This document shows positions 40,919 to 44,094 of a stretch of DNA of 64,000 bases, one piece after another (positions within the stretch are counted from its first letter, which is position 1; each line of letters starts with the position of its first letter). This DNA is from Acidobacteriota bacterium (GTDB lineage Bacteria; Acidobacteriota; Terriglobia; Terriglobales; Acidobacteriaceae). The notes under the pieces were generated by a model. It had not been told where the DNA came from. It saw only the letters and a program-made list of their open reading frames with translations, and ran no database searches. The stretch lies in the NCBI GenBank assembly GCA_021803035.1, contig JAJZME010000024.1, positions 38,888 to 102,887 of the forward strand. The letters are read 5' to 3'. A program made the translations under genes and the position numbers.

Positions 40919-41194
40919 GACAGATCTCCAAAAATTTGGCCGGGGCGTTCCCAGCCCGGTTGCTGCTGCGAAGACCTCGCACAATTCAGATCCGCGCCGC
41001 CGCTTCATCTGCGGCTCTGATCCGAAGCCTCGTGTGCTCTGTCTTGGCCGCAGGGTGTTGCGTACCAAAGTCAGTTTCCACGTTCTTCTGTTTCAGTATC
41101 GAAAGGAATTCCTAAAGAAGGCATAAAGACAGCGGGCGCCTTTAAGATATTTAAAATCAATTAAGAAGAGCTGCCCGTTTCAGGAGCAGCCCCC

Positions 41195-41707
41195 CTATTG
41201 GGGATTCGGGAAATCCATCGGGTATGTCGTGGGAGTCGTCACGTTCCCGTTATACGACCTCTTCATGTTCTTTTCAACGTTTCGCGCGAGCTTTTCGATT
41301 TGGGCCACCTTCTGAATCTGCCTTTTGCTCAGCGCCCCGGGCCTGGACTGGCCGATTTCGGCGTTCAGCTCCGCCGCCAGACTGAGCAGCTTCTGGGTGT
41401 CTTTAATCAAGGCCTTTTGCCGCAATGCCCTGAGTTGGCGCAGCACCATCGCCTTCTGCGTTGGATCGCCGCCGATATCGGGATAATGATGGGTTGGTTG
41501 CGGCCATTTCTGGATGTCCGGGAAGGGCGACTGCGGCGTGGAATAGCCCGGGTATCGTGAGTCGGGATACGGAGTCTGACTCTGTGCGGGGAGCGCCGCG
41601 TATAGCACCATACCCAGACTCCCCAGAAAAATCCACAAACTAAACCGTGTGATATACGCTGATCCGCCTCTCTTCTGGCAGCCTGCGTTCTCTTGCCGCG
41701 CTTTCAT
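41195..41707 (-). CDS. Secreted small helical protein A, family of unknown function
   Basis: 170 residues: a basic start, one hydrophobic segment (FSLWIFLGSLGMVLYAALPAQSQ) that is a signal peptide or anchor, a Pro/Tyr-rich linker and a charged helical region (TQKLLSLAAELNAEIGQSRPGALSKRQIQKVAQIEKLARNVEKNM). The tail is YPMDFPNPQ. I do not know the function. The helical region is homologous to that of protein B (LLKLAKELKAAM...KAGQIKELAHKI), and protein C is a close paralogue. The ATG has AAGGGC upstream. It follows B by 44 bp in the same operon, between kdp and MscS. Confidence 0.75.
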   Translation of the reverse strand: MKARQENAGCQKRGGSAYITRFSLWIFLGSLGMVLYAALPAQSQTPYPDSRYPGYSTPQSPFPDIQKWPQPTHHYPDIGGDPTQKAMVLRQLRALRQKALIKDTQKLLSLAAELNAEIGQSRPGALSKRQIQKVAQIEKLARNVEKNMKRSYNGNVTTPTTYPMDFPNPQ

Positions 41708-41751
41708 GACGAGCCCTTCGTTTCACCTGCACGCAGGCGTGGGAGAAACCG

Positions 41752-42180
41752 CTACTTCTTCTCTGCCACGGGCTGCGCTTGTTGCCGTATCTTATGTGCC
41801 AACTCCTTGATCTGGCCTGCCTTGCGAAGTACGCCGAGCGACAACGTCTGGTTGGAGTCGGTCTTTTCCATCGCTGCCTTCAATTCCTTGGCCAGCTTGA
41901 GCAGATCAGCGCACTCATCCGCCACCTGCGACTTTGCCGGATCTGCCGGCGCTGCCGCATCGGCCGGCTTTTGAGCCGCCTTGGCCGCAGGAGCCTCTTG
42001 CGGTGCGGGAGCCTGCTCAACAGCCGGCGCTTGCGCCTTTTGCCCGCCGCTCTTCACCGGCGCCTGTGCACAAACCTGCGCCGCCGCAAAAACAGCTACG
42101 GCAGCGATGGCGTGAAGTGCCAGGCCCTTCAGCCGATAGAGGCGCCAAGGCGTCGTCGCATTGGAGCCAGAAAGTCTCAT
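41752..42180 (-). CDS. Secreted small helical protein B, family of unknown function
   Basis: About 142 residues from the ATG at 42180. A signal-like segment (LKGLALHAIAAVAVFAAAQVCAQ) is followed by an Ala/Pro-rich linker and the helical motif CADLLKLAKELKAAMEKTDSNQTLSLGVLRKAGQIKELAHKIRQQ. I associate this helical module with acidobacterial exported proteins of unknown function. A good promoter (TTGCAT-N16-TATAAT) ends only 13 bp before the ATG and there is no Shine-Dalgarno, so the message may be almost leaderless. An upstream GTG at 42213 would lie across the promoter and is less likely. Confidence 0.7.
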   Translation of the reverse strand: MRLSGSNATTPWRLYRLKGLALHAIAAVAVFAAAQVCAQAPVKSGGQKAQAPAVEQAPAPQEAPAAKAAQKPADAAAPADPAKSQVADECADLLKLAKELKAAMEKTDSNQTLSLGVLRKAGQIKELAHKIRQQAQPVAEKK

Positions 42181-42193
42181 GAATGTTGAGAGG

Positions 42194-42221
42194 ATTATAG
42201 GCCCAAATCGCACCGATGCAA
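42194..42221 (-). promoter_or_regulatory. Sigma-70-like promoter of gene B
   Basis: On the minus strand TTGCAT (42221-42216), a 16-bp spacer and a perfect TATAAT (42199-42194). Transcription would begin about 7 nt downstream, leaving a leader of only some 6-8 nt before the ATG at 42180. Confidence 0.55.
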
Positions 42222-42395
42222 CAAAACTTTTTTTCGGGCGACCGGCTGCGCAATATTGATTCAGCCTGCCGCGCCGCGCTGCTCACGTCGCAACCTCAAT
42301 CCCGGCTCTGCGGAATCCCGCGCAACATGCGGCGAAGGACTTTATTTACTGCGGATTCGGAAACTCCGCGGGATTGGGATATGGCGCCGCGGCAC

Positions 42396-42863
42396 TCACG
42401 CTCCACCGTTCCCGCCATACGACATTTTCATGCTCTGCTCAAAGTTTTGCGCGAGCTTTTCGATTTCGGCCACCTTGTGAAGCTCCTCCTTGCTGAGGGA
42501 GCCGGGCCTGGACTGGGCGATTTCGGCGTTAAGCTCCGCCGCCAGCTTGAACAGCTTACGGGAGTACGTGATCAAGGCCTTTTGACGCAATTCTCTGAGC
42601 TCATGCAGCACCGTCGCCTCCTGGATCGGATCGCTAATGTTGGGAAAAGGAAACCCTGCCTGATCCCATGTCTGCCTGTCGGGGACAGACCAACCCGGTC
42701 CTTTATTATTCGGGCTTCCCTGCGAGGGAACCTGGCTACAGGTGGGGAGCGCCGGCCATAGCACCATACCCAGACTCCCCAGTAAAATCCACAAACTGAA
42801 ATGTGCGATATACCCTGATCTGCCCCGCTTCTGGCAGCGAACTTTCTCTTGCCCCGGTTTCAT
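42396..42863 (-). CDS. Paralogue of protein A with a frameshifted C-terminus (protein C)
   Basis: 155 residues from the ATG at 42863 (MKPGQEKVRCQKRG), preceded by AAGGGC; the ORF-track start at 42941 is too early. The signal segment FSLWILLGSLGMVLWPALPTCSQ and the helical region FKLAAELNAEIAQSRPGSLSKEELHKVAEIEKLAQNFEQSMKMSYGG nearly repeat protein A. After the GGNGGA end the paralogous tail continues in another frame as PYPNPAEFPNPQ, ending at 42346. So a single-base indel has removed the conserved tail. Protein C may still be secreted and functional without it. Confidence 0.7.
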   Translation of the reverse strand: MKPGQEKVRCQKRGRSGYIAHFSLWILLGSLGMVLWPALPTCSQVPSQGSPNNKGPGWSVPDRQTWDQAGFPFPNISDPIQEATVLHELRELRQKALITYSRKLFKLAAELNAEIAQSRPGSLSKEELHKVAEIEKLAQNFEQSMKMSYGGNGGA

Positions 42864-42894
42864 GACTTGCCCTTTATGTCCCTTGCACGCCGGC

Positions 42895-43080
42895 GCTCCG
42901 CACCGGCGCCGCCGCAAAGACACCCACGGCGGCAATGGCATGAAGTGCCAGGCACTTCAGCCCATAGAAGCCCCACGGCGTCGCCGCACAGGAGCCGGAA
43001 GGTCACAAGAATGTTGAGAGAATTTTAGGCCCAAATTGCGCCGGTGAAACAAAATTTTTTGCCGGGGACTGCGCAATCCT
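42895..43080 (-). pseudogene. Decayed 5' copy of gene B
   Basis: This stretch aligns by eye with the promoter and first part of gene B (about 42056-42240). The homologous -10 box is TAAAAT, the start codon has become TTG and the second codon is TGA. The rest of the gene, including the helical region, is missing. It is the B half of a duplicated A-B unit, with protein C as the A half. Confidence 0.7.
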
Positions 43081-43137
43081 CCTTCAAATTGCCGCACCGC
43101 GCCGCTCACGTTCTACTCTGATTGCAGGAGCTTCAGG

Positions 43138-44094
43138 ATGATCTGTTACTCGCCGGCGTCTCTTGGGGACTGGTATGCGGTCGGAGGCATTTTCACAAAG
43201 ATTCTCAACGGCTGGTCTGCCGATCTGCAGAGCTTCGCGCGCGACAAGCTGCCCCGCCTGATCGCGGTTGCCCTGATCGCCTTTCTGCTTGTTCAACTTC
43301 TCAGGTTGATCACCCGGCGCATGATCCACGTGGCCGAAAGGCACGCCGCGGGCGTCGAGCGCGTGGCGCCCGTGAAGACGCTGGCCGGCGTCATTCGCGC
43401 CACCGGGCTGGCGGTCATCGCCGTCATTACGGGATTGCAGTTTATGGCCGCCATAGGCGTCAATCTGGCTCCGTTGCTGGCTTCCGCGGGCGTCGCCGGC
43501 ATCGCCATCGGCCTGGCCGCGCAGACCATCGTCAAAGATGTCCTCAACGGCATACTGATTCTCGTCGAGGGCCAGTTCAACCTGGGAGACCCCATCAAGG
43601 TAGCCGGAATCACAGGCGTCGTTGAGGCCATGACCCTGCGCACAACCACCGTCCGGGACGTCGACGGCTCGCTCACCGTCATTCCCAATTCGCAAATCAC
43701 GACCGTCGTCAACATGAACGCCGGCTTCTCGGTAGCCACCGTCAACGTCAGCGTGGACTTCTCCGCCCACCCCGACGAAGTAACCGGGCTGCTCAAAAGC
43801 GTCGCCATGGATGTGCGCAACAGCGAAGCATTCAAGACACTCTTTACCGAGGATCCGCAGGTTCTCGGAGTGGACGCGGTCAAAGGCTCGGAGGTGATCT
43901 ATTCCGTGGTCTTCAAGACGCTTGCCAACAAGCAATATGCGCCGGCACGGGAGTTCCGCCGCCAGATGCGGCTGGCGCTCGAAGAACATCATCTCCTGCC
44001 TGGCGATCCCTATCGCGTCCTCGGTTCCTCCGGCTCTCCGGCCAAAGGCATTGCCGCCGCGGCACAGAGGGAGCAATCGGCGAGCGCCGGATAA
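43138..44094 (+). CDS. MscS-family mechanosensitive channel
   Basis: 318 residues with three membrane segments and the pore-lining TM3 glycine/alanine pattern ASAGVAGIAIGLAAQTIVKDVLNGILILVEGQFNLGD. The beta domain shows VEAMTLRTTTVRDVDGSLTVIPNSQI and the C-terminal mixed domain follows. It is a small-conductance inner-membrane channel that releases solutes on hypo-osmotic shock. It is divergent from the kdp and small secreted protein genes. The ATG at 43138 comes shortly after CAGGAG-like sequence (GCAGGAGCTTCAGG). Confidence 0.92.
   Translation: MICYSPASLGDWYAVGGIFTKILNGWSADLQSFARDKLPRLIAVALIAFLLVQLLRLITRRMIHVAERHAAGVERVAPVKTLAGVIRATGLAVIAVITGLQFMAAIGVNLAPLLASAGVAGIAIGLAAQTIVKDVLNGILILVEGQFNLGDPIKVAGITGVVEAMTLRTTTVRDVDGSLTVIPNSQITTVVNMNAGFSVATVNVSVDFSAHPDEVTGLLKSVAMDVRNSEAFKTLFTEDPQVLGVDAVKGSEVIYSVVFKTLANKQYAPAREFRRQMRLALEEHHLLPGDPYRVLGSSGSPAKGIAAAAQREQSASAG

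Follow-up and report, generated by a model that had tools for sequence, protein, structure and literature searches.

We consider it likely that the locus described here, which lies in a 64,000-nucleotide stretch of DNA from an Acidobacteriaceae genome (hereafter the window), records a recent tandem duplication in a fast-turning array of undescribed small secreted proteins, with the history and the inferred mechanism set out below. The phenomenon itself is an ordinary tandem duplication followed by decay, that is, gene-family turnover. The array occupies the interval between an MscS-type channel gene and the kdp genes in the order B'-C-B-A, and its elements are the following.

41068..41125, minus strand: promoter-like block of kdpFABC, conserved, common to the kdp loci of nine relatives
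41164..41196, minus strand: terminator-like stem-loop of 13 pairs directly after A; such hits are not above shuffle expectation
41195..41707, minus strand: gene A, 170 amino acids, A-type, with a putative signal peptide, a linker, a helical hairpin and a short tail ending in FPNPQ
41752..42180, minus strand: gene B, 142 amino acids, B-type, with a putative signal peptide, an Ala/Pro/Gln-rich linker and two helices
42074..42288, minus strand: 5' part of B with its upstream region, copy 1; the match in copy 2 is 42902-43111
42346..42371, minus strand: out-of-frame leftover of the C tail (PAEFPNPQ and stop)
42396..42863, minus strand: gene C, 155 amino acids, recent paralogue of A, module intact, C-terminal tail lost by frameshift
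42902..43015, minus strand: B', a pseudogene remnant holding only the signal-peptide part, with TTG for ATG, TGA at codon 2 and a body of about 334 bp deleted
43016..43111, minus strand: duplicated upstream/promoter region of B', whose counterpart in copy 1 is at about 42181-42288
43138..44094, plus strand: MscS-type channel gene, divergent from the array, a conserved neighbour of the hairpin family

In the self-comparison of the locus, the minus-strand unit B-A (about 41190-42288) recurs as B'-C (about 42346-43111) with 74-80% DNA identity. The recurrence is made of two collinear minus-strand matches, one between 42407-42895 and 41242-41739 (74% over 499 columns, 315 bits) and the other between 42902-43111 and 42074-42288 (80% over 215 columns, 195 bits), to be compared with a top score of 33.7 bits in 200 shuffles. 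The tandem duplication of a two-gene unit proposed in the earlier note is thus confirmed, and the similarity passes well beyond the A and C proteins, taking in the 5' end of B together with the region upstream of it; the refuting condition set in the earlier note, a similarity confined to the A/C proteins, therefore does not arise. The duplicated segment stops at 43111, with a few bases left before the likely mscS promoter, and thus includes the upstream region as well. The second copy has no counterpart of 41740-42073 (about 334 bp), which comprises the body and the stop codon of B. A near-perfect 16-nt inverted repeat is found at 42741-42756 and 42889-42904, its second arm lying at the B' deletion junction.

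The earlier description of B' as a promoter and a 5' end, with ATG changed to TTG and TGA at codon 2, is exactly what the alignment gives: the start of B, AACATTCATGAGACTT (ATG AGA), stands opposite AACATTCTTGTGACCT in B' (TTG TGA). B' is dead. The intact B starts at 42180, and a TATAAT lies a few bases before this codon (within 42181-42210), at a position where several relatives have a GGAGG ribosome site; the simple promoter scan did not report it. Its closeness to the start codon makes a leaderless or very short-leader transcript possible.

In the case of C, the claim of a nearly full-length copy holds for the folded module, which is kept, and has to be corrected for the end of the protein, which is slightly truncated too. 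Gene A ends in FPNPQ and a stop, and the equivalent tail of C (PAEFPNPQ and stop) is still legible at 42346-42371, out of frame behind a small insertion owing to which C stops early, at 42396. The start of C is most probably at 42863; a longer open reading frame begins at ATG 42941 inside the B' remnant and reads through it out of frame, and a spurious N-terminal extension of C may appear in automatic annotation. C and A are 66% identical over the module columns. Their pairwise dN/dS is 0.43 for the module (bootstrap 0.22-0.96, an interval that on 64 codons nearly reaches 1) and 0.83 for the signal-peptide part, which, with a wide interval, is near neutral. The module of C thus appears constrained, though not strongly, and C may be drifting, since the module estimate rests on few codons and the signal-peptide part is near neutral; the missing tail suggests that C could in time be lost.

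The family profile recognizes the helical module in each of A, B and C, and the tree, this profile and the hairpin predicted by AlphaFold2 in A and B together uphold the view that they form one family with a common helical module. It is an undescribed Acidobacteriaceae family, built of a putative Sec signal peptide, a low-complexity linker and a two-helix hairpin; the collected members have in common the hydrophobic N-terminus, the low-complexity linker and the conserved module, with the motif LxLAxxLxxxVxKTxxxxLSxxxIxKAxEIEKLAxxVKxKM. AlphaFold2, run on the family alignment, places the helices of the hairpin at residues 82-120 and 128-153 in A, with a confidence mostly of about 90 or above, and at 81-106 and 115-135 in B; a further N-terminal helix of A (19-37) corresponds to the putative signal peptide, and the linkers of both proteins, predicted with low confidence, are probably disordered. 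The earlier designation of these proteins as secreted is plausible, its basis being the hydrophobic N-terminal helix and an AxA-like site recognized by eye and by a hydrophobicity score.

Profile searches with A, B and C gave no convincing match in Pfam, NCBIfam or PDB sequences, the fold search against the PDB gave no significant match (the best, at E 0.49, is what any helical hairpin would typically give), and a literature search found nothing relevant. The Rfam search over 35.9-44.2 kb returned only a sub-threshold snoRNA match, treated as chance. Homologues are present in 99 of the 149 genomes of relatives, and in an even draw across the phylum the strong matches fall mainly within the window's own family, those elsewhere being weak. 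A scan of genome contigs with A as the query found no relative; with a B-type member it found 12 named metagenome-assembled genomes (MAGs), which bear the labels Acidobacteriaceae, Acidobacteria or Edaphobacter sp. On another contig (C82), gene A has a weak match (E 0.019), which was set aside, as it lies inside an unrelated frame.

Could these proteins be periplasmic chaperones or metal-stress proteins of the Spy/CpxP/ZraP kind? They are small, all-helical and putatively secreted, many A-type members open their second helix with LTPxQ, which recalls the LTxxQ motif, and ZraP and CnrX appear among the non-significant fold matches. We nevertheless hold this identity to be unlikely: the Pfam LTxxQ family gives no match, Metal_resist (PF13801) is met in one of 90 members (E 0.009), a search of the PDB with the family profile, taken to E 1, brings up no chain of Spy, CpxP or ZraP, the best fold match is the E 0.49 given above, and the module has two helices rather than four.

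The history of the genes can be read from a tree of 115 modules, which has few columns and many unresolved forks, so that the strong splits alone were used. One clade (99 SH-aLRT) gathers 44 A-type proteins, none of them from outside the window's genus; A and C belong to it, as does the A-type gene of a second B-A pair, which the same genome carries on another contig (C43), between smc and E1. On the other side fall the B-types, together with the homologues that other genera have in single copy. A and C are sisters (99 SH-aLRT). These splits indicate that the A/B divergence is old within the genus and that the A/C duplication is recent. The type assignments agree with profiles built from other genomes: the A-type profile scores A at 85 bits, C at 79 and B at 30, and the B-type profile scores B at 74. 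The family is present in 64 of 79 genomes of the genus and in nearly all those sampled from other Acidobacteriaceae genera, and its copy number in the 79 genus members runs from 0 to 6, with a mode of 2. Such dispensable genes with a fast turnover are more in keeping with an accessory role in the envelope than with an obligate channel subunit.

The MscS side of the array is ancient. The ancestral order, seen in relatives from the genus and from other genera, is MscS (divergent) - B - A - E1 2-oxoacid dehydrogenase. MscS is divergent from the first family gene in 22 of the 24 genus genomes whose locus was examined, most of these loci consisting of an array of 2-4 genes followed by E1. Outside the genus the pairing is kept in 25 of the 30 genomes that represent other genera of the family, and in one genome of another family, bringing the total to 48 relatives. 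DUF255 and E1 are gone from seven loci at which MscS still adjoins a family gene. The gap between the first ATG of mscS and that of the family gene is mostly about 40-250 bp, and this conserved divergent arrangement agrees with a common regulatory region for mscS and the family. Many genus members (L037-L060, L099) contain a near-invariant stretch, CTAGACTAGACTGTGCGCAGG, in this gap, just upstream of mscS; its window counterpart, at about 43111-43137, is diverged. The exact 15-base core of the stretch occurs in nine of 60 genomes, once in each, at the mscS-family locus only. Its left half persists beside the mscS start in genomes without family genes, those few having lost the right half (TGTGCGCAGG), and since the left half survives there we read the stretch as a likely mscS promoter region. 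In other genera and families (L058, L059, L061, L063, L067, L068, L101, L129, L133), the homologue is often near a gene for a membrane-bound H+-pyrophosphatase and sometimes near rho.

Large MscS relatives, such as MscK and MscM, carry periplasmic helical domains, and the array proteins might be a detached version of these domains, acting as periplasmic accessory subunits or gating regulators of the divergent MscS. The immediate neighbourhood in 48 relatives, the short gaps and the seven loci where the pair outlives its other neighbours speak for this partnership, to which we give little credence all the same, because each partner is found without the other. Across the 79 genus genomes, 58 have both, 11 MscS only, 6 the family only and 4 neither (Fisher p 0.09). 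The family is absent and MscS kept in G004, G011, G018 and G062 (96-100% complete), MscS is absent and the family kept in G012, G015, G021 and G032, and several of these one-sided genomes are near-complete; G004, G011 and G017 have no array at all, MscS being separated from E1 by about 150-180 bp. Furthermore, extra family loci are found away from MscS. The presence of the family does not depend on the channel, and from the independent losses we conclude that it is not an obligate channel subunit. The more elaborate proposal, in which detachable periplasmic helical partners would tune a small MscS, array size would set the osmotic response and this genome would be trimming the duplicated pair to a single A-type copy, seems to us very doubtful. 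What remains of the earlier remark on the MscS neighbour is the neighbourhood, which is old and real in the 48 relatives; the turgor role attached to it stays a guess, family and channel being lost independently.

The kdp side is of another nature. In the window, kdpFABC lies on the same strand directly downstream of A, and this is what recommends the idea that the pair works with kdp in K+ or turgor homeostasis. We find this idea hardly credible: none of the family loci examined in relatives includes kdp, and here kdp has its own conserved promoter block behind the terminator-like stem, which argues against co-transcription with A, although such stems are as frequent in shuffled sequence. The block upstream of kdpF (about CCTTACGCTTTATTTAGGAATTCTTTTCGATACTCAAA, 41068-41125) recurs at ten kdp loci, that of the window included, and is likely a kdp control site in Acidobacteriaceae. 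In several relatives it follows a response-regulator gene (Pfam-checked in one, L092), and the KdpD sensor-domain hit of the window's own genome is on another contig (C31:113919-114545), apart from kdpFABC. Furthermore, the closest relative by SMC identity, G015, carries three family genes between smc and E1 on one contig and, on another, DUF255 directly beside kdp, with no MscS or family gene between. This arrangement means that the split of the array is shared with the window's genome; a later loss in G015 and a duplication here are the simplest reading. A single simple inversion, in which kdp and smc would be former neighbours, is not supported, as in G004 and G009 a distance of about 140 kb or more separates the two on one contig. 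The role that the earlier note drew from a location between kdp and MscS does not stand, the kdp side being a derived junction: the kdp neighbour is a rearrangement scar, and a warning against reading function from it. That the second copy is an assembly artefact of a draft genome in 83 contigs can be practically dismissed, as the copies differ by 20-26% with indels, far beyond assembler duplication, and the DUF255/kdp arrangement is backed by the independent genome G015.

The history we propose starts from an ancestral locus of the form mscS (divergent) - B-type - A-type - E1 dehydrogenase, which a rearrangement would have broken in the lineage common to this genome and G015, its nearest relative. 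One part would have kept mscS and DUF255 and gained kdpFABC as a neighbour; the other would have kept E1 and gained smc. The B-A unit on the mscS side was then duplicated in this genome, B' losing its body and C keeping its module. Founded on the duplication, the decay, the family, the gene orders and the losses, this evolutionary reading is firm. As to the molecular function, A, B and C would be exported to the periplasm, where the flexible linker would carry a two-helix hairpin, its probable partner being another copy of itself or its paralogue. They would serve as expendable proteins of the envelope or of the stress response, with the number of gene copies setting the dose. The divergent regulatory region would be common to the family and mscS and would co-regulate them, the family being no part of the channel. 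Dispensable periplasmic helical proteins sharing a regulatory region with mscS are, to us, what these genes most likely encode.

New here are the family and its ancient link with MscS, as well as the split array and the evidence for kdp as the newcomer. An ordinary duplication leads in this way to an undescribed family that most of the Acidobacteriaceae genomes examined contain and that is found most often beside a mechanosensitive channel gene. What advantage does a variable array of small helical envelope proteins give to these soil bacteria, and could it be related to osmotic stress?

Compared with known systems, B'-C is exactly the process of tandem duplication with pseudogenisation of one copy, and nothing in its mechanism is unusual. 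The hypothetical secreted proteins of Acidobacteriaceae MAGs have the same signal-linker-hairpin plan, the same motif and the same B-then-A order as those described here. Most members of the genus keep a single B-A array between MscS and E1, whereas here it is split in two, with one part beside kdp and one B dead. Spy and CpxP (LTxxQ), like ZraP and CnrX, are likewise small, helical and exported, as our proteins putatively are, and many A-type members have LTPxQ at a helix start; the present family differs from them by the want of any sequence or significant fold match, by its two-helix hairpin and by its long disordered linker. The periplasmic helical domains of MscK and MscM, finally, resemble the family in being helical, periplasmic (putatively so here) and tied to an MscS channel, in our case by gene neighbourhood; unlike them, the proteins of the array match none of those domains in Pfam, are encoded by separate genes and are lost independently of MscS.
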